DNA of 64,000 bases from Alphaproteobacteria bacterium. Its GTDB lineage: Bacteria; Pseudomonadota; Alphaproteobacteria; Acetobacterales; Acetobacteraceae. Positions 27,830 to 43,590 of this stretch are shown in pieces. The notes beneath the pieces are model-generated. The model did no database searches. It saw nothing but the letters and a program-made list of their open reading frames with translations, and was not told where the DNA came from. Each line of letters opens with the position of its first letter. The stretch's first letter is position 1. The stretch lies in NCBI GenBank assembly GCA_017307285.1, contig JAFKFI010000047.1:62001-126000 (forward strand), written 5' to 3'. A program made the position numbers and the translations under genes.

Positions 27830-27865
27830 TTTTGGTTGAACGCTGGCCATACAGCGCAACCAAAA
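27830..27865 (+). promoter_or_regulatory. Strong hairpin in the leader of the RTX-type gene
   Basis: TTTTGGTTG (27830-27838) pairs with CAACCAAAA (27857-27865). After an AA bulge, CGCTG (27841-27845) pairs with CAGCG (27852-27856) around a six-base loop. The element ends five bases before the GGAG ribosome site (27871) of the RTX-type gene. There is no T-run after it on the plus strand, so it is more likely a regulatory leader hairpin or operator than a terminator of the MFS gene. Confidence 0.55.
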
Positions 27866-27882
27866 ACGTTGGAGCATTCGGA

Positions 27883-30800
27883 ATGGCGACGAGGACCTGG
27901 ACGCCGGGCACCACGGGCGACTGGTACGTGGCCGGCAACTGGACGACGCTGCCGCCCGAGCCAAACGATTTCCCGCAGGCCGGCGATCAGGTGGTCGTGC
28001 TCGATGGCGCACCGATCATCACGGCAGCCGACAGCCTCTCCTTCGGCCCGATCGTCAACGAGAAGATCCGGCTGGGGTCAGCCACCGGCAACACAACGGT
28101 GGTGCTGCAAGCAACCGGCGAGACCTTCGGCCTCCGGACCGAGATCACCGCCGTCGGCTCGCAAACCCCGGCCGTCAATCTCGACCTCTATGGCACCACC
28201 GCGCTGCAAGGCAGCATCGTCGTACAGGGCCAGGACCGCACCTTCACGATCCGCAGCCAAAGCGACGGCACCACCGACGATTTCATCATCGCGGATGCGG
28301 GCAGCAATCCCGGTCCCGGCCTGATCGCGGTGAGCCAGGGGAGCGTTCTCGAGCTCGCCGGCGATCAGATCACCAATAACGGCACGGTGCAGACCGACGG
28401 CACTCTGCATCTCGCCAGCGGGTTGCAGTTCGGTGGCTTTGGCGATGTCGAGATCGAGGCGGAAGGCGTCGTCAGCGTGGACGGCAGCGTCGGCAGCGCG
28501 CAGCAGATCGACTTCCTCGACAATGGCGGACGCCTGGTTCTGACCAACCCGGCGGCGTTTCTCGGGTTGGTCGGCATGTTCGGCCCCGGCGACAGGATCG
28601 AACTGCCCAATACGCAGGCGCACTCCTTCACCTACCAGACGGGCAACTTCAGCATCGGCACGCTGACGCTCTATGCGGGCGCGACGCCCGGCGGCACGCC
28701 GCTCGCCACCCTGAACGTCAGCGACCCGGCGGCCAACGGCACGCAGGACTTTACTCTCACGACGGACAGCCAGGGCGGCACGCGCATCACCTATCAGCCG
28801 CAGGGTCTGACGACGCTGCAGGAATCGCTGCCGTTCGCCGCGGTCGGCACCACGGGCCAGCTGATTTCGTTTCAGGATTTACTGACCCAGGCGTTCGGGA
28901 CGATTCCGACCGGCTACGCCAGCTACACGCTGTCCGGGCCGTTCCGGCAGATGCCGACCGAGTCCTATTGGCAGCAAGGGCCGAACGGGCCGCCAGAGAA
29001 CTCCTACTGGCTGGTCGGCGGCGTGCCCGTCACCGGTCCGACCACCGTGAGCGCGAACGACATCGGCAACGTCTCGTTCTACGAGGGCAACAGCATCGTC
29101 CGCACCGCGGCATTCACCGTGACGAACGCGGCCAACCAGAACATCGACTACAACATCTGGACGGTCGATCCGTCGGTCCTTGCGCCCCAGACGGGCGATG
29201 CTACCCCGATCGCGGGCGTGCCGGGCTCGGGCACGCGATTCGGCCGGCCGGACCCCGCCGACATGGTTTCCTCCGCGTATCGCTACAACATGGTCTATGC
29301 GGGCGTGCTGAACACCAACAACTGCAACTGGATCGCCGATAACGTCGCGGCGGGCGCCGGCGCCGTCATGCCGTTCGACGACGCCAGCACGGACCCCGCC
29401 GACAACGTCTCGGGTGGCTTCTGGCGCATCGTCTATCGCGGCTCCGACCCGAACCCGGTGCAGGACTGGGGTGCGATCGTGCAGCCAGGCGATGTCGTGC
29501 GCCTACAATGGCTGGCGAGCGGCGGGCCACACACCACGACGATCGTGGGCACCGGCAACCCGGACGGCACCGTCACGGTCTACGACAACGTCGCTTTCAA
29601 CAGCGCGGGCGTCGAGATCATCGGCGTGCACACGGCGGCGTACTGGAAATCCGCCGATCCGCTCAGCACCACGATCTATCGCCTCGACCCGCTGCACCAA
29701 TACCTGATCAATGGCACCGCCGAGAGCGAGTTCCTGCAAGGCAGCGTGTTCAACAACCTGATCCAGACCGGCGGCGGCGCGGACACCATCACGGCGGGAG
29801 CGGGCAGCAACGAGATCCAGGGCACGGCGGCGCAGCTCGACGGTATCACCGTGAGCGACGTCCATTTCGCCGACACGCTCGATTTTACCGATCTCGACCC
29901 GACACGGACGCGCGCGACGCTCGACCGCAATTCCGGTGTGTTGACGGTGCGGCAAGACGGCGCTTTGGTTGCCTCGGTGAACGTGTCCGGCGGCTTCGCG
30001 GGCGCTGATTTCTTCGCTGCGTCGGACGGCAATGGCGGCACCATCCTAGCTCTCGCGCCGGTGGACCTCGGCGGCTACGGCGAGGCCACGCGGGCGGTTC
30101 TCGAGAAGGTCTTCGCCCCGCTGGCCGCCAGCGGCCGCACCACCAACGTCGTCACATCGTCGGACGGCAGCTTCGCCGCGCCCTTCTCCGGCCAATACAA
30201 TCTCGCGGTGTTCGACAACCCGCCGGCCGGCGGCAGGATCACCGTGCCGGAGGGCTACACCGGCGCGCCGGCCCAGCCGCAATATCAGGCGGCCATCGCG
30301 CAGGGCAGCAACGATATCGTCTTCACTGGCCCGCAGGATGGCCACGCGCTGCTCGTCGGCAATGGCGGCAACAGCCTGCTCGACGCGCACGGCACCGCCG
30401 ACACCGTGGTTGCGGGCGGCGGCAACGCGACGCTGTTCGGCGGCGGCGACGAGACCTTGCTGGTGGGCGGCGCCGGAGCCGACACGCTGGTCGCCGGCGG
30501 CGGGGCGGTGACGCTCGCCGGCGGCAGCGGGGGCTCGCTGAGCTTCGCGGGCAGCGGCGAAGGCACCGCTCTCGCCGGCACCGGCCACGATACCATCGTG
30601 AGCGGGGCCGGCGCGGTGACGGTGTGGGCCGGCGACGGCGAGCCCCTGGTGTTCGGCGGCAGCGGCGGGCTCACCTTCATTGGCGGTTCTGGCAACGCCA
30701 CCGTGGTTGCCGGCAACGGCAACGCGACGGTCACAGCGGGGTCGGGCGCGGATGCGGTGTGGGGCGGTGCGGGAAGCGACGTGCTGCAGGCGGGCAGCGG

Positions 30801-31056
30801 CAACGCGACGCTGGCGGGCGGCGCTGGTGCCGATCTGTTCGGCTTCACCGCGGGCCGCGCGGGCGGCAGCGACGTGATCGTCGACTTTCTCTCCGGCACC
30901 GACCACGTGCAGCTGCAAGGCTATGGCGGCAACGCGGTGGCGAGCGCGCTCGCCGGCGCTACCACCGCCAATGGCAACACCCTTATCACCCTGGGGGATG
31001 GCACACAGGTCGCGTTCCTCAACGTCACCGGCCTCACGGCGGCGGATTTCGTCTGA
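27883..31056 (+). CDS. Large RTX-type secreted protein with candidate Cys/His peptidase domain
   Basis: This is a 1057-residue protein without a Sec signal. Residues about 1-300 are beta-rich, with the TWTPGTTGDWYVAGNWTT block common in secreted adhesin-like proteins. Residues about 470-590 contain NNCNWIADNV with Cys481, then QPGDVVRLQW and His550 in GGPHTTTIVG. The order and spacing resemble CHAP or NlpC/P60 cysteine peptidases. Residues about 815-1000 carry Gly/Asp-rich RTX-like repeats (GGAGADTLVAGGG, GGAGADLFGF). The C-terminus (SDVIVDFLSGTDHVQL, then about 45 residues) resembles serralysin-type type I secretion signals. ATG 27883 follows GGAG; an ATG at 27832 in frame lies within the leader hairpin. 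No secretion ABC genes are adjacent. Confidence 0.75.
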   Translation: MATRTWTPGTTGDWYVAGNWTTLPPEPNDFPQAGDQVVVLDGAPIITAADSLSFGPIVNEKIRLGSATGNTTVVLQATGETFGLRTEITAVGSQTPAVNLDLYGTTALQGSIVVQGQDRTFTIRSQSDGTTDDFIIADAGSNPGPGLIAVSQGSVLELAGDQITNNGTVQTDGTLHLASGLQFGGFGDVEIEAEGVVSVDGSVGSAQQIDFLDNGGRLVLTNPAAFLGLVGMFGPGDRIELPNTQAHSFTYQTGNFSIGTLTLYAGATPGGTPLATLNVSDPAANGTQDFTLTTDSQGGTRITYQPQGLTTLQESLPFAAVGTTGQLISFQDLLTQAFGTIPTGYASYTLSGPFRQMPTESYWQQGPNGPPENSYWLVGGVPVTGPTTVSANDIGNVSFYEGNSIVRTAAFTVTNAANQNIDYNIWTVDPSVLAPQTGDATPIAGVPGSGTRFGRPDPADMVSSAYRYNMVYAGVLNTNNCNWIADNVAAGAGAVMPFDDASTDPADNVSGGFWRIVYRGSDPNPVQDWGAIVQPGDVVRLQWLASGGPHTTTIVGTGNPDGTVTVYDNVAFNSAGVEIIGVHTAAYWKSADPLSTTIYRLDPLHQYLINGTAESEFLQGSVFNNLIQTGGGADTITAGAGSNEIQGTAAQLDGITVSDVHFADTLDFTDLDPTRTRATLDRNSGVLTVRQDGALVASVNVSGGFAGADFFAASDGNGGTILALAPVDLGGYGEATRAVLEKVFAPLAASGRTTNVVTSSDGSFAAPFSGQYNLAVFDNPPAGGRITVPEGYTGAPAQPQYQAAIAQGSNDIVFTGPQDGHALLVGNGGNSLLDAHGTADTVVAGGGNATLFGGGDETLLVGGAGADTLVAGGGAVTLAGGSGGSLSFAGSGEGTALAGTGHDTIVSGAGAVTVWAGDGEPLVFGGSGGLTFIGGSGNATVVAGNGNATVTAGSGADAVWGGAGSDVLQAGSGNATLAGGAGADLFGFTAGRAGGSDVIVDFLSGTDHVQLQGYGGNAVASALAGATTANGNTLITLGDGTQVAFLNVTGLTAADFV

Positions 31057-36181: not shown

Positions 36182-37063
36182 TCAGACCGGCGTGTCGCCG
36201 CGGATGGTGATTCGGTGCATCAGGCGGGTGCCGGCGGGATAGTCGTTGATCGCGAAATGCTGGGTGCAGCGGTTGTCCCAGAATGCCAGCGAGCCCGTGC
36301 GCCAGGCGAAGCGGCAGGTGAACTCCGGCCGCGTCGAGTGCCGCGTCAGGAAGTCGAGCAGCGGCTGGCTCTCCTCCTCGGTCATGCCCTCGAAATATTG
36401 CACGTGGCTGCCGAGGTAGAGCGACTTGCGGCCGGTCTCGGGGTGCGTGCGCACCAGCGGATGCGCGGAGGTGGTCTGCAGATCACCGGTGTCGCGCACC
36501 TTCACCGTGGTGAGGCGGTCGGCGTAGAACTCGCGGCGCGACTTGCCGCCGTATTTCTTGCCGCCCTCGCCGACGCTCACCGTCTTGAGCGGCTCGAGCA
36601 TCCGCCGCATCCCGTCGGACAAGGTCTCGTAGGCGAGGTACTGGTTGGAGAACATCGTGTCCCCGCCGGCCTCGGGCACTTGCCGCGCGTACAGCATGGT
36701 GCCCATCGCCGGTTGCGGCGCGAACATCTGGTCGGAGTGCCAAGTGCCGCCGAAATTGCGCTTGTCGGTCTCCGCCTTCCTGATCTCGATGATCTCGGGA
36801 TGCTCAGGCAGCCCCTCGATGAACGGGTGAAGATGGATCTCGCCCCAGCGCCGCGCGAAGGCGAGCTGCCGGTCGGGCGTCAGCTCCTGATCGCGGAAGA
36901 AGATCACCAGATTCTCGTGCAACGCGGCGCGGATTTCCTGCAGCACCTCGTCGTCGATGTCGCGCGCCAGATCGACCCCGGCGATCTCGGCGCCGAGCGC
37001 CCCGGCGATCCGATGCGCCTCTATGTGCTGAAAACGGGCGTTGCGCGATCCGTCCACGGCCAA
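36182..37063 (-). CDS. TauD/TfdA-family Fe(II)/2-oxoglutarate dioxygenase
   Basis: This 293-residue protein has the facial triad His-Asp in TWHSDQMF and a distal His in NRCTQHFAINDY, followed by the 2-oxoglutarate-binding Arg in LMHRITIRGD. The family hydroxylates substrates such as taurine, 2,4-D or alkyl sulfates. GGDTMFSNQYLAYETLS is the conserved TauD central block. The substrate cannot be read off; no sulfonate genes flank it, though a phosphonate locus lies 2 kb away. It ends downstream of the paired repeat region. Confidence 0.9.
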   Translation of the reverse strand: MAVDGSRNARFQHIEAHRIAGALGAEIAGVDLARDIDDEVLQEIRAALHENLVIFFRDQELTPDRQLAFARRWGEIHLHPFIEGLPEHPEIIEIRKAETDKRNFGGTWHSDQMFAPQPAMGTMLYARQVPEAGGDTMFSNQYLAYETLSDGMRRMLEPLKTVSVGEGGKKYGGKSRREFYADRLTTVKVRDTGDLQTTSAHPLVRTHPETGRKSLYLGSHVQYFEGMTEEESQPLLDFLTRHSTRPEFTCRFAWRTGSLAFWDNRCTQHFAINDYPAGTRLMHRITIRGDTPV

Positions 37064-37149: not shown

Positions 37150-39078
37150 TCAGGAGGCCATCCGCGCCGGCGCGGGCGGCGCGGCGGCGATGTACGTCGC
37201 TGTGTGAGCGACATGCACCTCCAGAGTGATGGCACCGCCCGTCGATTGTCCGATCGGCAGTTCGGCGTTGCCGTCGGTCCACCGCCACATCCTGCCGCCC
37301 TCGCGCTCCACCACGTGCCAACCACGGGTGAGCGAAGGATGATCGACCGGGATCACCACCTCGCCCTCGGCCGAGCGCAGCACGATCCGACGAATCGCTA
37401 CGCCGAGAGACCGGAAATCGTCGAGCCACGGAACGACATCGGACGGGACCACCGCGCGAGAGACGAGGCGCACCGACGGCGCGACGGGCAGCACGAAGAC
37501 ATACCGGCCGCGATCCGTGGAAACTGGGCGAATGCCGCGTCCGGCCACCAGCAGGCAAAGATCGGGATCGTCGGTCGTCGCTTGCAAGGACGGCGCATGA
37601 CCGAGCTGCCTCGCACGCTCCGCCACCCTTCGCCAGACCGGTTCGATGGCGGCGGGGCTCACCGCGAGCGGCGCGCAAGCGTCCTCCGCCCAGCATTTCA
37701 GGCCGGCGTTCACGTGGAACTCCGGGTGCAGCACCAAGGCGAGGCCCGCATTGGCGAAGAACGCGCGGTTGCCGGTGTCGAGATAGCTCTCCACCGGCAG
37801 GCCCTCGGCGACCAGCACGGCGTGGCGCTCCAATTCGACGTGATAATAATGCACGCCCCGCGCTGCCAGTTCCTGCACGACGGTCATGCCGTTCACCAGC
37901 AGCTTCGCCGGGATCAGCTTCCCGTCAATGAACAGGCAGTGGTCCGGTGACAGCAGCAAATCGCGCTTCGGCATGTCCCGCGCGATGGCGCCGCGCCGAA
38001 TTCTGATCGGTGCGACCGCCGCCGGTCGCGGATGAGCCGCAATGTCGATCCGCCGTTGGCCGAGCCATTTCACCGGCTTGAGCACAGGCTGCCCATTCGA
38101 CACGGTGACGACCAGATCGCCCTCCGACAGTCGTTCGACAGGGACCTCGCCACGAGAGGTCAGGATATGCGTCCCGCTCGCGAAACAGACGGAGAAGACC
38201 CCGTTGCCGATCGGTGCAGCGGTGGCGGCGTTGTTCGGTCCGGTCAGGCCATACGACGCGAGGATCGTGCTGAGCAGATTGTAATGATTGTAGGCAGTGG
38301 CGTAGGTGCCTGGATTGACATGAGCGCCGTCCAGGATGGTTGCCACGCGGTTGCCGGAGCTCCCGTCATTTTCGTCCCAGGTGACGACGAGCAGCGAGTT
38401 GTTCGCCTTTGCCCACGTCGCGTAGGCGCCGAGGTTGGCCTGCAGCCACGCATCGCCCTGCGCGATCGTGCCGGTGTGCATGTCGTGGTCGACGCTCGGG
38501 ATGACGAACGACACGGTGGGTAGCAGGTTGAAGTTCGTGGTCGGGAACGCGCTGAAGTCCTGCTCGACGGAGAAACCCTCGGGAAACGATTCCCAGGGGT
38601 TGTGATCGTAGGACGAGTTTGGCGTGTCTACATATCCGACGAAGGTTCGGCCGGCGCCTTGCAGGACCGTCGCCAGCGACGGGTCCGGCACCGTGTGCGG
38701 GTTGTCATCAGTGACGCCGAAGGTGCTGCCGGCATAGAGCGCGTAGTAGTTCGGCTGGCTCGGATGCGAGATCGCCGTGTAGTTGGTCAGCAGCGCATTC
38801 GCCGCGGCGAGGGCATTGATGTACGGCGCATCGACAGTGTTACCGATGATCTGGCTGTAGTCGTGATTCTCCTCCACCACGACGACGATGTGCGAATAGC
38901 TGGGCACGCCCGACGACGCGAGCGCCAGCGGCGCGAAGGACAACGGAGGATTGCTCGGCACGGCCGGCGACAGCGCGCCATCGTCGTCAAGCGTCGTGGT
39001 GCCGGCGACGTCGGCCGGAACGGAGACGTTGTGGATCGAACGAGACGCATAGATCGCGTTGGCGCCACGAATGTGCAT
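37150..39078 (-). CDS. Phosphoesterase (AcpA/PLC family) fused to a Hint domain
   Basis: This is a 642-residue fusion. Residues about 55-290 are a phosphoesterase domain of the phospholipase C/acid phosphatase type: VVEENHDYSQIIG near residue 66, HPSQPNYYALYAG, PSVDHDMHTG and VVTWDENDG supply the metal-ligand blocks. At Cys298 a Hint domain begins (VCFASGTHILTSRGEVPV) and runs to about 440, with DLLLSPDHCLFIDGKLIPA as its second conserved block. About 200 residues of beta-rich sequence follow. There is no Sec signal, so non-classical or type I export is possible. The start at 39078 has a GGAGGGG site; an upstream ATG at 39135 has none. Confidence 0.85.
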   Translation of the reverse strand: MHIRGANAIYASRSIHNVSVPADVAGTTTLDDDGALSPAVPSNPPLSFAPLALASSGVPSYSHIVVVVEENHDYSQIIGNTVDAPYINALAAANALLTNYTAISHPSQPNYYALYAGSTFGVTDDNPHTVPDPSLATVLQGAGRTFVGYVDTPNSSYDHNPWESFPEGFSVEQDFSAFPTTNFNLLPTVSFVIPSVDHDMHTGTIAQGDAWLQANLGAYATWAKANNSLLVVTWDENDGSSGNRVATILDGAHVNPGTYATAYNHYNLLSTILASYGLTGPNNAATAAPIGNGVFSVCFASGTHILTSRGEVPVERLSEGDLVVTVSNGQPVLKPVKWLGQRRIDIAAHPRPAAVAPIRIRRGAIARDMPKRDLLLSPDHCLFIDGKLIPAKLLVNGMTVVQELAARGVHYYHVELERHAVLVAEGLPVESYLDTGNRAFFANAGLALVLHPEFHVNAGLKCWAEDACAPLAVSPAAIEPVWRRVAERARQLGHAPSLQATTDDPDLCLLVAGRGIRPVSTDRGRYVFVLPVAPSVRLVSRAVVPSDVVPWLDDFRSLGVAIRRIVLRSAEGEVVIPVDHPSLTRGWHVVEREGGRMWRWTDGNAELPIGQSTGGAITLEVHVAHTATYIAAAPPAPARMAS

Positions 39079-39371
39079 GTTGCCCCTCCATGACCCGATG
39101 GCGACCCAGTTCTTACAAGCGAAGGTCCGCATCACCCAATCCGGCGAACCAGTCGTTTTGCAACCGATTGCGCGCGTGTGGGCTCGGCTTTACTCGGTAG
39201 CGTGGAACGCTGATGTGTGCGTCCACTCGAACGTAGTCGAATGGCGAATCCACTATCGCGTCGGGCGAAACGTGGAGGCAGAAAAGGCAGAGGCCGAAGA
39301 CTATTGCATTCGCTCACGAATCAATTCGTTACACTTTTTCTTTCATCTGCATTGGGATGACGCAACGAGAA
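39079..39371. other. Intergenic region upstream of the phosphoesterase-Hint gene
   Basis: These 293 bases carry the promoter region of the leftward phosphoesterase-Hint gene and the end of the leftward phnM-like gene. ACGAAT (39316-39321) and ATTCGT (39324-39329) form a palindrome with a two-base centre in the AT-richest part, and a TTTTTCTTTC stretch follows. The palindrome could be an operator; no clear -10/-35 pair was found. Confidence 0.35.
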
Positions 39372-40514
39372 TCAGACGAGGCGCGCCGCGCCCTCCCGTC
39401 CGAGATAGGCGACGCGCCCGTCGACCAGCGTGGCGACGACGCGGGTGTCCTGGGGGTCGACCAGGACGAGATCCCCGCGCAGGCCGGGCGCGATCCGGCC
39501 TCGGTCGGCAAGGCCGGCCGCGCCGGCGGGGTTGGCCGAGATCAGGTTCCACGCTCGCGGCAGGTCGAGCACGCCGCGCCCGGCGAGGGTAAGCGCGGCC
39601 CGCAGCATCGCGGGGTAGAAGTAGTCGCTGCACAGCACGGTGCAGATCCCCGCCTCCGCCATGCGGGCAGCCGAAGCCCAGCCGAGATGCGAGCGGCCGC
39701 GCACCACGTTGGGGCTGCCCATCACCACCCAGTCACCGGCCTCGCGTGCCGCGATGGCGACCTCCTCTGCCACGGGAAACTCGCAGATCGTGGCACCCCG
39801 GGCGCGATGCTCGTCGCGCATGGCGATGCTCTCGTCGTCATGGCTCGCCATCGCCAGGCCCGCCGCGCGGGCTGCCGCGCCGATTTGGTCGAGTGCCAGC
39901 GGCACGTCGTCGGCCTGCGCGCCGATGCGTTCGGCGAGGGCGCGAAACTCCGCGACATTCATGGCGGCGCGATCGCTGTACTTGGCGGCCGTCACTGGAT
40001 CGGCGACGCGGCGCAGGATCGCCGGGGTGTGATCGTTGAAGGCGAGCAGATGTACGCGCCCCGCCGCGATGTCAGCCAGCGCGGTGTCGAGGGCGGCGAG
40101 GTTGAACGCCTCCCAGCGCAGATGCACCCGCATGTCGCAGACGAAGCGCTCCGCCTGCATCGCATCGACCAGCGCGCGCCACGCCTCCAAGCTGCGCAGC
40201 CCCGGTTCCCAGGAGAGCGTGATGCCGTGAAACGCCGTGGTGATGCCGTTGGCGAGCAGCTGCGCCTCGGTGTCGCGCAAGGCGATGTCGGGCGCGAAAT
40301 CGACACCGGGCCGCGGCTGCACCTGCCGCTCGAAGGCGTCGCCGTGGATGTCGACGATGCCGGGCAGCACCAAAAGACCGCGGGCGTCGAGGGTTCGGCG
40401 GGCGGATGCCGCGCCGATCGCGGCGATGCGTCCGTCTTCGAGCAATAGATCGACGAATTCCAGGCCGGTCTCGGGCAGCAGGGCTTGCCCGCCGACGATG
40501 CGCAACTGGCTCAA
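39372..40514 (-). CDS. Second PhnM-like amidohydrolase of the phosphonate locus
   Basis: This 380-residue amidohydrolase resembles PhnM (alpha-D-ribose 1-methylphosphonate 5-triphosphate diphosphatase). It has the metal-binding GIVDIHGDAFERQVQP block, where PhnM reads VDxHTDNLE, then FNDHTP, ASHDDESI, and GSPNVVRGRSHLG. It is clearly a paralogue of the PhnM at 45894, being diverged at the substrate side (HGDAFE rather than HTDNLE). The start is probably TTG 40514, with a GGAAG site and 13 bases after the phnF stop. It is cotranscribed with the regulator phnF, opposite to the main operon. It may act on a related phosphonate intermediate. Confidence 0.8.
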   Translation of the reverse strand: MSQLRIVGGQALLPETGLEFVDLLLEDGRIAAIGAASARRTLDARGLLVLPGIVDIHGDAFERQVQPRPGVDFAPDIALRDTEAQLLANGITTAFHGITLSWEPGLRSLEAWRALVDAMQAERFVCDMRVHLRWEAFNLAALDTALADIAAGRVHLLAFNDHTPAILRRVADPVTAAKYSDRAAMNVAEFRALAERIGAQADDVPLALDQIGAAARAAGLAMASHDDESIAMRDEHRARGATICEFPVAEEVAIAAREAGDWVVMGSPNVVRGRSHLGWASAARMAEAGICTVLCSDYFYPAMLRAALTLAGRGVLDLPRAWNLISANPAGAAGLADRGRIAPGLRGDLVLVDPQDTRVVATLVDGRVAYLGREGAARLV

Positions 40515-40527
40515 ACCGGGGCTTCCT

Positions 40528-41286
40528 TCAGGGTTCAAAGACGATCTGCACGCGCGGCGTCGCGTAGACGCCGATGGCGAACTCGACGATGGCGCCGCCG
40601 CCCTCGACGTTGACATTTTCCGCCAACAGCACGGGGCGGCTTCGCGGGGTGCGCAGCAACTCCGCCTCGTCGGCGTTCGGCATCCGCGCCGTCACCCGCG
40701 TCACCTGCCGGCGATAGTCGGGGACGCCGACTTGCTTCAGCGCCTCGGTGATGCTCGGCGAGTGCCGAAGCAGGTCGAGCAGGGGGCGGAAGCGCGGGGC
40801 GGCGAAATAATGTCGGGTGATACTGATGGGCCGATCGTCGGCGAGGCCGAGCCGCTCGAACAGGATCGCGCGCGACCCTGCCCGCACCCCGAGCCCAGCG
40901 GCGATCTGCGCGTCTGCCGCCACCTCCTTGAGCTGCAGGACGCGGCCCGATGGCTCCTTGTTCTGCCGGCGAATCCACTCCGAGAACCGGGTGCGCGGCT
41001 CGACGGTGTAGTCGATCACATCCTCGGCGACGAACGAGCCGCGGCCCTGCTCCACCCGCACCAGCCCGGCGCGGGACAATTCCTCGAGCGCGCGGCGCAC
41101 GGTGTGGCGATTGACGCCGAACCGCGCCGAGAGCTGCGCCTCGGTGGGCAGGCGGGAGGCCGGCGGATAGGTGCCCTCGCCGATATCGCGTTGCAGGCTG
41201 GCGGCGATCTGCCGCCACAGCGCCACACCCTCCTGTCGGGAGGCCAGGCGCTCTCCCGCGTCACGGGTCATGGGAATTTCATTCAT
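40528..41286 (-). CDS. phnF: GntR-family regulator of phosphonate metabolism
   Basis: This regulator of about 252 residues has an N-terminal GntR winged helix (LPTEAQLSARFGVNRHTVRRALEELSRAGLVR in consecutive blocks) and a C-terminal UTRA ligand-binding domain. It is divergent from phnG, which identifies it as PhnF. It would repress the operon until phosphonate is present. Three in-frame ATGs (41303, 41286, 41271) are possible; none has a clear ribosome site, so the start is uncertain. The direct repeat between it and phnG is a candidate operator. Confidence 0.87.
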   Translation of the reverse strand: MNEIPMTRDAGERLASRQEGVALWRQIAASLQRDIGEGTYPPASRLPTEAQLSARFGVNRHTVRRALEELSRAGLVRVEQGRGSFVAEDVIDYTVEPRTRFSEWIRRQNKEPSGRVLQLKEVAADAQIAAGLGVRAGSRAILFERLGLADDRPISITRHYFAAPRFRPLLDLLRHSPSITEALKQVGVPDYRRQVTRVTARMPNADEAELLRTPRSRPVLLAENVNVEGGGAIVEFAIGVYATPRVQIVFEP

Positions 41287-41314
41287 GGAATTAGATTGCT
41301 CATGCGAGACCGGC

Positions 41315-41358
41315 TTGACGATAGGCCGATATACGTCTAGCTGTCTAGATGTCTGAAT
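41315..41358 (+). promoter_or_regulatory. Divergent phnF/phnG control region with three GTCT octamers
   Basis: Three consecutive 8-bp units, GTCTAGCT, GTCTAGAT and GTCTGAAT, occupy 41335-41358, just before phnG. The first two overlap a TCTAG-centred inverted repeat. A TTGACG at 41315-41320 would be a -35 for phnG, with the -10 falling inside the octamers. The layout suits PhnF binding and repression of both directions. Confidence 0.55.
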
Positions 41359-41373
41359 GAGAGCAGGCCAGCC

Positions 41374-41838
41374 ATGCCGGACCCCTCCCCGCCCGCCTCC
41401 GAAGATCCCCGCCGACGCTGGATGGCCGTGCTGGCGCGTGCGGCGGCGCCGGAGATCGAGGCTCGGCTGCGGGCGTGCGGCGAGCGGCCGGATTATCGGC
41501 GGCTGCGCGGCCCGGAAACCGGGCTGGTGATGGTGCGCGGCCGGATGGGCGGTGGCGGCGCCGGGTTCAATGTCGGCGAGATGTCGGTGACGCGCTGCAC
41601 GGTGCGGACGAGATGCGGCCGCGTCGGGCACGCCTATGTCGCGGGGCGCGACGAACGCCAGGCAGAGTTGGCAGCGCTGGTGGACGCGATGATGCAGGAC
41701 CCCGCCCGGCAAGCCGTGCTGCGGGAGGCAGTCGTCGAGCCGCTGGCCACGGCGCAGGAGGCGAGGCGCGCGGAGACGGCGGCCAAGGCGGCGGCCACGC
41801 GGGTCGAGTTCTTCACCATGACGAACATGCGCGCATGA
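41374..41838 (+). CDS. phnG: C-P lyase complex subunit PhnG
   Basis: This is a 154-residue PhnG. Characteristic blocks are PETGLVMVRGRMGGGGAGFNVGEM and VTRCTVRT, followed by GHAYVAGRDERQAELAALVDAM. PhnG is part of the PhnGHIJ core that binds ribose 1-phosphonate chemistry; with PhnI it displaces the adenine of ATP with phosphonate. It opens the operon and overlaps phnH by ATGA. Confidence 0.95.
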   Translation: MPDPSPPASEDPRRRWMAVLARAAAPEIEARLRACGERPDYRRLRGPETGLVMVRGRMGGGGAGFNVGEMSVTRCTVRTRCGRVGHAYVAGRDERQAELAALVDAMMQDPARQAVLREAVVEPLATAQEARRAETAAKAAATRVEFFTMTNMRA

Positions 41839-42413
41839 GCGGCGTCGATCTTCCCGGCTTCGCCGACCCGGTGCTGGACGCGCAATCCTGCTTCCGCGCC
41901 GTGCTCGACGCGATGGCGCGGCCGGGCCGGCTGCACCAGGCCGGCAGCGGGCTCACGCCGCCCGCGCCGTTGCATCCAGCGACAGCCGCGATGCTGTTGA
42001 CGTTGGCGGATGGCGACGCACCGGTCTGGCTGGACCCAGCCGCCTCGGCGGCGCGCGAGTGGGTGCTGTTCCATTCCGGGGCGCCGATCGCGAGCGAGGC
42101 ACGGGATGCGGCGTTCGCGGTCGCACTCTCGTTCCCCGATCTCGCTTCGCTGTCGCCTGGCAGCCATGAGGCGCCAGAGGAAGCCACGACATTGATCCTG
42201 CAAGTCGCGGCGCTCGGCAGCGGACGGCAGTATCGGCTGTCCGGTCCCGGCCTGCGCGCGCCCGGCGTGCTCGCGGTGGACGGATTGCCTTCCGGGTTCA
42301 TCGATGCCTGGGCGAGCAACCGCGCGGGATTCCCCTGCGGCATCGACCTCGTGCTGTGCGCGGGAACCACGTTGACGGCGCTGCCGCGCACCGTCGCCAT
42401 CGAGGAGGCGTGA
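41835..42413 (+). CDS. phnH: C-P lyase complex subunit PhnH
   Basis: This is a 192-residue PhnH. The family pattern includes DPVLDAQSCFRAVLDAMARPG at the N-terminus and FPCGIDLVLCAGTTLTALPRT at the C-terminus. It forms the dimeric core component of the C-P lyase complex. The start overlaps phnG, and phnI follows after one base. It has no catalytic residues of its own that are known. Confidence 0.95.
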   Translation: MSGVDLPGFADPVLDAQSCFRAVLDAMARPGRLHQAGSGLTPPAPLHPATAAMLLTLADGDAPVWLDPAASAAREWVLFHSGAPIASEARDAAFAVALSFPDLASLSPGSHEAPEEATTLILQVAALGSGRQYRLSGPGLRAPGVLAVDGLPSGFIDAWASNRAGFPCGIDLVLCAGTTLTALPRTVAIEEA

Positions 42414-42414
42414 G

Positions 42415-43590
42415 ATGGCCTATGTCGCGGTCAAGGGTGGCGAGCGGGCCATCGACAACGCCCACAAATGGATGGCCGAGGAGCGGCGCGGGGATGCGGC
42501 GACGACCGAGCTCGGTCTCGACCAGATCGCCGGGCAGCTCGGCCGGGCGGTCGATCGGGCGATGGCCGAGGGCTCGCTCTACGACCGGGAGCTGGCGGCG
42601 CTGGCGATCAAGCAGGCGCAGGGCGATCTGATCGAGGCGGCGTTCCTGCTGCGCGCATATCGCACCACCCTGCCCCGCTTCGGCCACTCCGAGCCGGTCG
42701 CGACCGACCGGATGCAGCTGCGCCGGCGGGTCTCGGCGATCTTCAAGGACTTGCCCGGCGGCCAGGTGCTCGGCCCGACCTATGACTACACCCATCGGCT
42801 GCTGGATTTTTCCCTTGCGGCGGCCGGCGAGGCACCGGAGCCCGCCGCGCGGGCAGAAGCTGTCAATGAGAGCGTGCCGCGCGCGTCGGACATTCTCGGC
42901 CACGAGGCGCTGATCGAGAGCGACGGTACGGCCGAGGAAGAGCCTGGCGACCTGACGCGCGAGCCGCTTGCCTTTCCGGCTGGGCGCGATCTGCGCTTGC
43001 AGGCGCTGGCGCGGGGCGACGAGGGATTTCTTCTCGCGCTCGGCTACTCGACGCAGCGCGGCTGGGGCGGGACGCATCCCTTTGTCGGCGAAATCCGGGT
43101 GGGCGAGGTCGCGGTGGAGATCGTGCCGCCCGAGCTCGGCTTTGCCATCGACATCGGCGACATCACCGTCACCGAGTGCCAGATGGTCAACCAGTTCAAG
43201 GGCTCGAAGACGGTTCCGCCGCAATTTACCCGCGGCTATGGGCTCGCCTTCGGGCACGCCGAGCGCAAGGCGATGGGGATGGCGCTGGTGGACCGGGCGA
43301 TGCGGGCGGAAGAATTCGGCGAGGAGGTGACGGCGCCGGCACAGCGTGTGGAGTTCGTGCTGTCGCATTGCGACAACATCGAGGCGACCGGGTTTGTCGA
43401 GCATTTGAAATTACCGCACTACGTGGATTTTCAGAGCGAACTCGAAGCGGTGCGGCGGATGCGCGCAGCAACCCCTCACCCCGGCCCTCTCCCGCAAAGG
43501 GAGAGGGAGAAGAAAGCCCCCTCCCCTTGTGGGAGGGGGTTGGGGGAGGGGTCGAGCGCACAGGCGGAAACGAGCGAGGCTGCCGAATGA
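42415..43590 (+). CDS. phnI: C-P lyase nucleosidase subunit PhnI, with repeat-derived C-terminus
   Basis: This 391-residue PhnI starts right after phnH behind GAGGAGG. The N-terminal MAYVAVKGGERAIDNAHKW and the central GYSTQRGWGGTHPFVGEIR block identify it. PhnI is the nucleosidase that, with GHL, transfers phosphonate onto the ribose of ATP. Its last about 35 residues are atypical: after RRMRAATPH the sequence is encoded by a known type of extragenic repeat (43471-43551), in frame. The normal core is about 355 residues, so the enzyme is probably functional with an added tail. It overlaps phnJ by ATGA. Confidence 0.92.
   Translation: MAYVAVKGGERAIDNAHKWMAEERRGDAATTELGLDQIAGQLGRAVDRAMAEGSLYDRELAALAIKQAQGDLIEAAFLLRAYRTTLPRFGHSEPVATDRMQLRRRVSAIFKDLPGGQVLGPTYDYTHRLLDFSLAAAGEAPEPAARAEAVNESVPRASDILGHEALIESDGTAEEEPGDLTREPLAFPAGRDLRLQALARGDEGFLLALGYSTQRGWGGTHPFVGEIRVGEVAVEIVPPELGFAIDIGDITVTECQMVNQFKGSKTVPPQFTRGYGLAFGHAERKAMGMALVDRAMRAEEFGEEVTAPAQRVEFVLSHCDNIEATGFVEHLKLPHYVDFQSELEAVRRMRAATPHPGPLPQREREKKAPSPCGRGLGEGSSAQAETSEAAE
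43471..43551 (+). repeat. Repeat element inserted in frame at the 3' end of phnI
   Basis: The segment contains two perfect 9-bp hairpins, 43485-43493/43499-43507 and 43517-43525/43531-43539, separated by a short A-rich link, and it encodes PHPGPLPQ and then PSPCGRGLGEG. Sequence of this type is a common dispersed extragenic repeat in high-GC genomes. Here it lies inside coding sequence, between the end of the ordinary PhnI and the ATGA overlap with phnJ. Confidence 0.8.

Follow-up and report, generated by a model that had tools for sequence, protein, structure and literature searches.

Type B bacterial intein-like (BIL) domains are described as cutting without splicing (PMC4031507, PMC7765530, PMC5874633), and in hedgehog proteins a sterol recognition region is described as sitting after the Hint domain (PMC9163320). 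FrpC-type modules are presented as autocatalytic modules inside type I-secreted RTX exoproteins that clip and link (PMC7078468, PMC5233953), and MafB of Neisseria as a secreted bacterial protein with a Hint domain (PMC7738311). Here we describe a gene in a 64,000-nucleotide stretch of an Acetobacteraceae genome (contig JAFKFI010000047.1, positions 62,001 to 126,000; hereafter the window), which encodes an AcpA/phospholipase C (PLC)-type phosphoesterase joined to a Hint_2 module. With slightly better than even confidence, we propose that a thioester of Cys298 with Val297 breaks and the enzyme is split off, likely during or after type I export.

The gene (37150..39078, minus strand, as are all its features given below) runs from an ATG at 39078 to a stop at 37150 and encodes 642 residues; relatives P0002 and P0003 match it over the full length (81% each). 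An alternative in-frame GTG start at 39135 would give a 661-residue protein; residue numbers follow the 642-residue ATG version, and Pfam positions have been shifted by 19 from the 661-residue version. The Pfam Phosphoesterase profile (PF04185) matches residues ~83-278 (E = 2.2e-27, 96.6 bits against a cut-off of 23), and Hint_2 (PF13403) matches residues ~297-435 over profile positions 1-146 of 147 (E = 1.3e-45, 155.8 bits against a cut-off of 28.4). These matches bear out the proposal of the initial annotation that the phosphoesterase domain (residues ~57-295; 38194..38910) ends where the Hint_2 domain (residues 298-434; 37777..38187) begins. The predicted scissile bond, Val297-Cys298 (38185..38190), lies at this junction, and Cys298 opens the motif CFASGTHILT directly after Val297. 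According to sequence and structure model, the 344 residues after Cys298 comprise the rest of the ~137-residue Hint domain, a linker (residues 435-495; 37594..37776) and a separate beta domain (residues ~496-630; 37189..37593), with strands at 508-626 and predicted local distance difference test (pLDDT) scores mostly >80. The further 200 residues noted initially mostly form a separate domain of a type also present in glycosyltransferases. Both Pfam domains occur together in 21 of 119 other proteins listed, from several sources, so a chance pairing or a chimeric assembly is unlikely.

Conservation was assessed in the 120 best relatives, of which 119 carry the Hint domain and were counted (P0018 has none). 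Cys298 (Hint residue 1, or Cys1), His380, His413 (37840..37842; place of block F residue 4, by motif) and His419 (37822..37824; block F, by motif) are invariant in 119 of 119. Hint block B (S/T-x-x-H) is present as S377-P-D-H380 (37939..37950), with Ser in the place of the usual Thr; 118 relatives have Ser here and one has Thr. In a second survey, 40 regions taken from the listed, better-scoring Hint_2 places yielded 43 Hint open reading frames (ORFs), and Cys1 is present in all 43. Structure comparison aligns Cys298 with residue 1 of inteins and residue 258 of hedgehog; the match to hedgehog 1at0 spans the Hint domain alone, and structure matches fall mainly on module residues 1-137. A single-protein phmmer search of the PDB gave no match; profile searches gave a short Hint stretch, BIL 2lwy, as their top match. 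The conserved residues and the structure comparison support the Hint fold foreseen for residues 298-440, in register with residue 1. The linker contains Cys468 (37675-37677), which is conserved in 110 of 119 relatives and might act as a second acceptor or pair with Cys298 in a disulfide.

Inteins end in His-Asn. In the window protein the class 1 intein end (His-Asn and +1 nucleophile) is missing: VESYLDTGN stands there without His-Asn, and E430-S431 (37786..37791) occupies the His-Asn place by motif, with Glu in 118 and Asp in 1, and Ser in 113 and Thr in 6, of the 119 relatives. Splicing is therefore not expected. Similarity to intein block G is absent around residues 420-440, as in the type B BIL definition given in PMC4031507. 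The residue profile is the same as that of type B BIL domains, although Pfam Hint_2 is not thereby equated with type B; in the sets examined, Hint_2 differs in its place close to the C-terminus, with either a conserved glycosyltransferase-type domain or a shorter tail behind it. Unlike hedgehog, the Hint_2 proteins are bacterial, have varied passengers (the parts before Cys1) and no visible signal peptide, and no sterol region was recognised, the C-terminal domain not having been searched alone. The hedgehog Hint profile (PF01079) had no match in the window protein at E up to 1 and stayed under its cut-off in relatives P0008 and L034. The FrpC-type module is described as cutting Asp-Pro with Ca2+ by an anhydride route (PMC7846742), whereas the window protein has a Hint fold and, at the junction, Val297-Cys298 instead of the Asp-Pro scissile bond. 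MafB also differs, as it is described with a signal sequence and with Hint preceding a C-terminal toxic domain.

Cleavage at Val297-Cys298 would leave the enzyme complete, because some of its stand-alone relatives end near the Cys298 place (P0136 with ...FGGFI, P0176 with ...FGGFV and P0196 with ...FAVFQP); the stand-alone relative P0139 (290 residues, signal-like N-terminus) matches through residue 296 and ends seven residues later. Placed by motif and not by structure, E70, N71, S107 and H201 are nearly invariant, and D235 and E236 are invariant. The E70-N71-H72 motif (38863..38871) was set against NPC4 E23-N24, Ser107 (P-S-Q-P-N-Y; 38758..38760), the presumed nucleophile, takes the place of NPC4 T158, and D235-E236 (TWDEND; 38371..38376), invariant in a 20-row alignment, corresponds to NPC4 D299-E300. 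Compared with AcpA and non-specific phospholipase C, the window enzyme is shorter, and it scores far under the cut-offs of the NCBIfam models of both (15.4 of 362.75 and 9.7 of 580.25 bits). The same genome encodes two further, Hint-less phosphoesterases, 70% and 60% identical; one leads into beta repeats and has 0 Cys in 770 residues, and the other is interrupted by a contig end.

The initial annotation had taken the fusion for an unusual single pairing. Instead, the genome contains eight Hint_2 genes with different passengers. One passenger is the phosphoesterase, another has five Calx-beta stretches, and others have a matrixin peptidase, ELWxxDGT repeats (53.3 bits, under the cut-off of 65) or a choice-of-anchor E domain (202 bits against a cut-off of 23.8). 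In the remaining three, no family scores over cut-off. Hint_2 occurs in 47 of the 60 genera sampled of Acetobacteraceae, in 1 to 22 copies. In a draw across the class, 3 of 115 genomes have Hint_2 over cut-off, namely the own genome, a second Acetobacteraceae genome and G081 from a different family, which has 17 matches (16 over cut-off) and one protein (L056) with long RTX-like runs. Hint_2 genes also stand in clusters of three and four (L098, in G023 C35; G081 C4 217214-227024). That the pairing was undescribed is not contradicted by the literature matches listed (on Hint processing, BIL, type I secretion, Acetobacteraceae and related modules), but the database record of P0016 already names both domains ('Hint domain-containing protein/phosphoesterase family protein'). 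The novelty sits less in the pairing than in the module, in which an almost Cys-free, likely exported passenger is joined to a Hint domain with cleaving residues and a glycosyltransferase-type domain.

The protein was said to lack a Sec signal, and none was seen. Its hydrophobicity, taken as the best 10-residue value in the first 35 residues, which is a crude measure and not a signal-peptide predictor, is 0.92, against 2.06-3.40 in 15 hand-picked signal-looking relatives. The N-terminal stretch (residues 1-56; 38911..39078) has no hydrophobic signal core and is modelled with low confidence (pLDDT <50 for residues 1-37 and 39-57). Only one of 93 Hint proteins starting with M reaches 2.0, through the enzyme's own first strand. 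The passengers of 99 proteins are also almost free of cysteine (2 in 31,767 residues), whereas their modules have 454 in 32,923 and other picked ORFs of the window 194 in 16,011. Six surveyed ORFs carry a GGxGxD-like motif, and the five that were scanned include four with RTX over the Pfam cut-off and one with a serralysin C-terminal domain before the Hint. Such Hint/RTX company is probably not new, because BIL domains were reportedly noted beside RTX repeats by Amitai in 2003. RTX proteins are described as type I substrates with a C-terminal signal (PMC3034196), and one HlyD of type I scores over cut-off in the genome, next to an ABC exporter. Judged by this company, type I export of Hint_2 proteins is likely.

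Elsewhere in the window, positions 27832-31056 on the plus strand encode a 1074-residue beta-repeat protein with RTX repeats (PF00353, 1.5e-13) and without Hint, which ends in LTAADFV and is a likely type I substrate. The 'DG-x-GGT' end that many passengers have was considered as a type I signal and dropped, as this RTX protein has the motif internally. Nor is linkage to type I genes claimed: HlyD lies at <=~10 kb from Hint_2 in two family genomes (G051 C106 and G056 C34), and chance would give roughly one or two (by eye, among the matches listed).

In the mechanism that we favor, Cys298 would form a thioester with Val297, and breakage of this thioester would split the phosphoesterase from the Hint_2 tail. 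Cleavage would be N-terminal only, and release would probably occur during or after export by the putative type I route. The C-terminal domain may govern where, or to what, the thioester is released. Hint_2 and its tail would then form a common C-terminal module on different exoproteins, replacing the usual type I tail.

Several observations weigh against this mechanism. The residue before Cys1 is often Val, Ile or Pro, unlike the expectation for a fast cleaver: it is Val in 73, Pro in 17 and Ile in 10 of the 119 relatives, and Pro in 15, Ala in 6, Thr in 6, Leu in 4, Ile in 3 and Val in 2 of 40 in the survey. Pro before Cys is a poor choice for cleavage, and hydrophobic and beta-branched residues before Cys reportedly weaken an intein, as the title of one paper has it. 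Two near-stand-alone modules, L055 (MTQLP-C) and L114 (MAVGF-C), have ~5 residues before Cys1, so that a cut would free nothing useful, and module L054 has lost Cys1. No cleavage report for Hint_2 proteins was found among the literature matches listed, and many Hint-less relatives of the enzyme continue past the junction into Ig-like, RTX or other repeats. Cys-poverty is neither strict nor special to Hint proteins. Of the 43 surveyed passengers, 33 lack Cys altogether and ten contain 1-4; because counting began at the earliest potential start, these numbers may take in upstream letters. Among the seven other passengers of the own genome, six have none and one (L036) has 2, and one Hint-less paralogue is Cys-free as well. 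As for export, the window protein has no RTX match (PF00353, Pfam), and the PrtD exporter model stayed under its cut-off in the genome. By eye, no type I genes stand beside the own Hint_2 genes except at L032, where an ABC-exporter-like gene, under the PrtD cut-off, lies ~2 kb from the Hint_2 gene. With HlyD in 58 of the 60 family genomes, finding it is uninformative and allows no test against Hint_2 presence; G004 has 4 Hint_2 matches and no HlyD.

The unfavorable residues before Cys1, the near-stand-alone modules and the Cys1-less L054 would all suit a Hint fold retained for a different role, for example as a module for export or folding, with slow or no cleavage. The far end of the proteins points the same way. 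Among the 120 relatives the last residues are LAA in 58, IAA in 7 and MAA in 4, Ala is the last residue in 106 and Arg stands at -4 in 86, and this common L-A-A end suggests that the far end is itself read by something; the tail of the window protein (residues 631-642; 37153..37188) ends in RMAS. The LAA end resembles the ssrA end, and a C-terminal degron was considered only as an idea. However, Cys1, both block B residues (Ser/Thr and His) and a further pair of His remain strictly conserved across passengers of very different kinds, which is hard to explain without chemistry, and we consider this alternative rather unlikely.

The C-terminal beta domain suggests another fate for the thioester. 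Residues ~496-630 have no Pfam match. A profile of 13 C-terminal domains gave 6 matches in the own genome, all in Hint_2 genes, and 60 matches in 12 family genomes. Seven more of the 60 matches, inspected individually, comprise three non-Hint proteins, three Hint modules (L051, L054, L055) and one ambiguous case (L053). Among the non-Hint proteins, L052 (G006 C37) is a family-4 glycosyltransferase that contains the entire domain (E = 1.0e-9); L049 (6.2e-6) resembles a glycosyltransferase and L050 (7.5e-5) a sulfotransferase, both with Pfam matches under cut-off. The domain also occurs in five more glycosyltransferases. In the family-4 glycosyltransferases L052 and P0233-P0238, the domain is an inserted unnamed beta domain near the N-terminus. 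The Hint-side profile (A3) and the glycosyltransferase profile (A5) align over their whole length, taking in RWTDG, with an hhalign E of 2.3e-17 and a probability of 98.9, the E-value being pairwise and not from a database search.

One possibility is that this domain holds an acceptor, probably a surface glycan, to which the Val297 thioester is passed on as in hedgehog, so that the enzyme becomes fixed to the cell surface. A glycan acceptor is the boldest reading of the domain, because it sits after Hint, at the place of the hedgehog sterol recognition region, and it matches a domain inside family-4 glycosyltransferases. A thioester on a beta-branched residue or Pro would withstand hydrolysis until an acceptor arrives, and the 'choice-of-anchor' and M10/RTX passengers suggest surface sorting. 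However, the domain has no known ligand or acceptor, and the best 50 Foldseek rows contained, besides Hint, only low-probability glycoside-hydrolase rows, which say little as the C-terminal domain was not queried alone. The hedgehog general base D303 was not located in the window protein. Moreover, 2 of 8 modules in the own genome and 14 of the 40 surveyed span <230 residues from Cys to end and have no room for the domain, which is therefore not needed for the Hint job in all cases. We regard such ligation as unlikely. A fuller version, in which Hint_2 and a glycan-recognition domain would export a Cys-free passenger and pass its thioester to the cell's own polysaccharide coat, with up to 22 proteins per genome glycan-linked, seems decidedly unlikely; if true, acetic-acid bacteria and their relatives would covalently decorate their surface with enzymes and adhesins by one chemistry. 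A pretoxin-Hint arrangement that frees a C-terminal effector, as proposed for some MafB proteins, would fit a likely exported protein in which another domain follows the Hint, but it is highly improbable: variation lies in the N-terminal part, the conserved C-terminal part resembles a glycosyltransferase-associated domain, and no Asn is available for cleavage at the C-terminal side.

Although Hint_2 forms a large family, no study of its function was found among the literature matches listed. Of two sources (PMC12487129 and PMC11999647), one lists the Hint_2 family and the other names a Hint protein without assigned function; PMC2362128 mentions another bacterial Hint group that is poorly characterised and partly equipped with signal peptides, and its relation to Hint_2 is not implied. 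The module has two unexplained traits, the almost Cys-free passenger and the glycosyltransferase-type domain behind the Hint. They raise the question of which partner the thioester reacts with. With water, the module would be a self-releasing exoenzyme system; with a glycan, it would parallel hedgehog lipidation in bacteria and might serve as a tool for joining sugars to protein C-termini.

Carbon-phosphorus (C-P) lyase genes lie around the gene at 39372-43590, encoding PhnG, PhnH and PhnI together with a GntR/UTRA regulator and an amidohydrolase, perhaps PhnM. Because the gene adjoins them, a Pho box was sought; the best upstream score was 8 of 14 against the consensus, no better than in shuffled sequence, and Pho regulation is not claimed. 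One relative, P0004, 85% identical to the window protein, is labelled Acidimicrobiales and probably comes from a mis-binned contig. On the other side of the gene, a TauD-type dioxygenase is encoded at 36182-37063.
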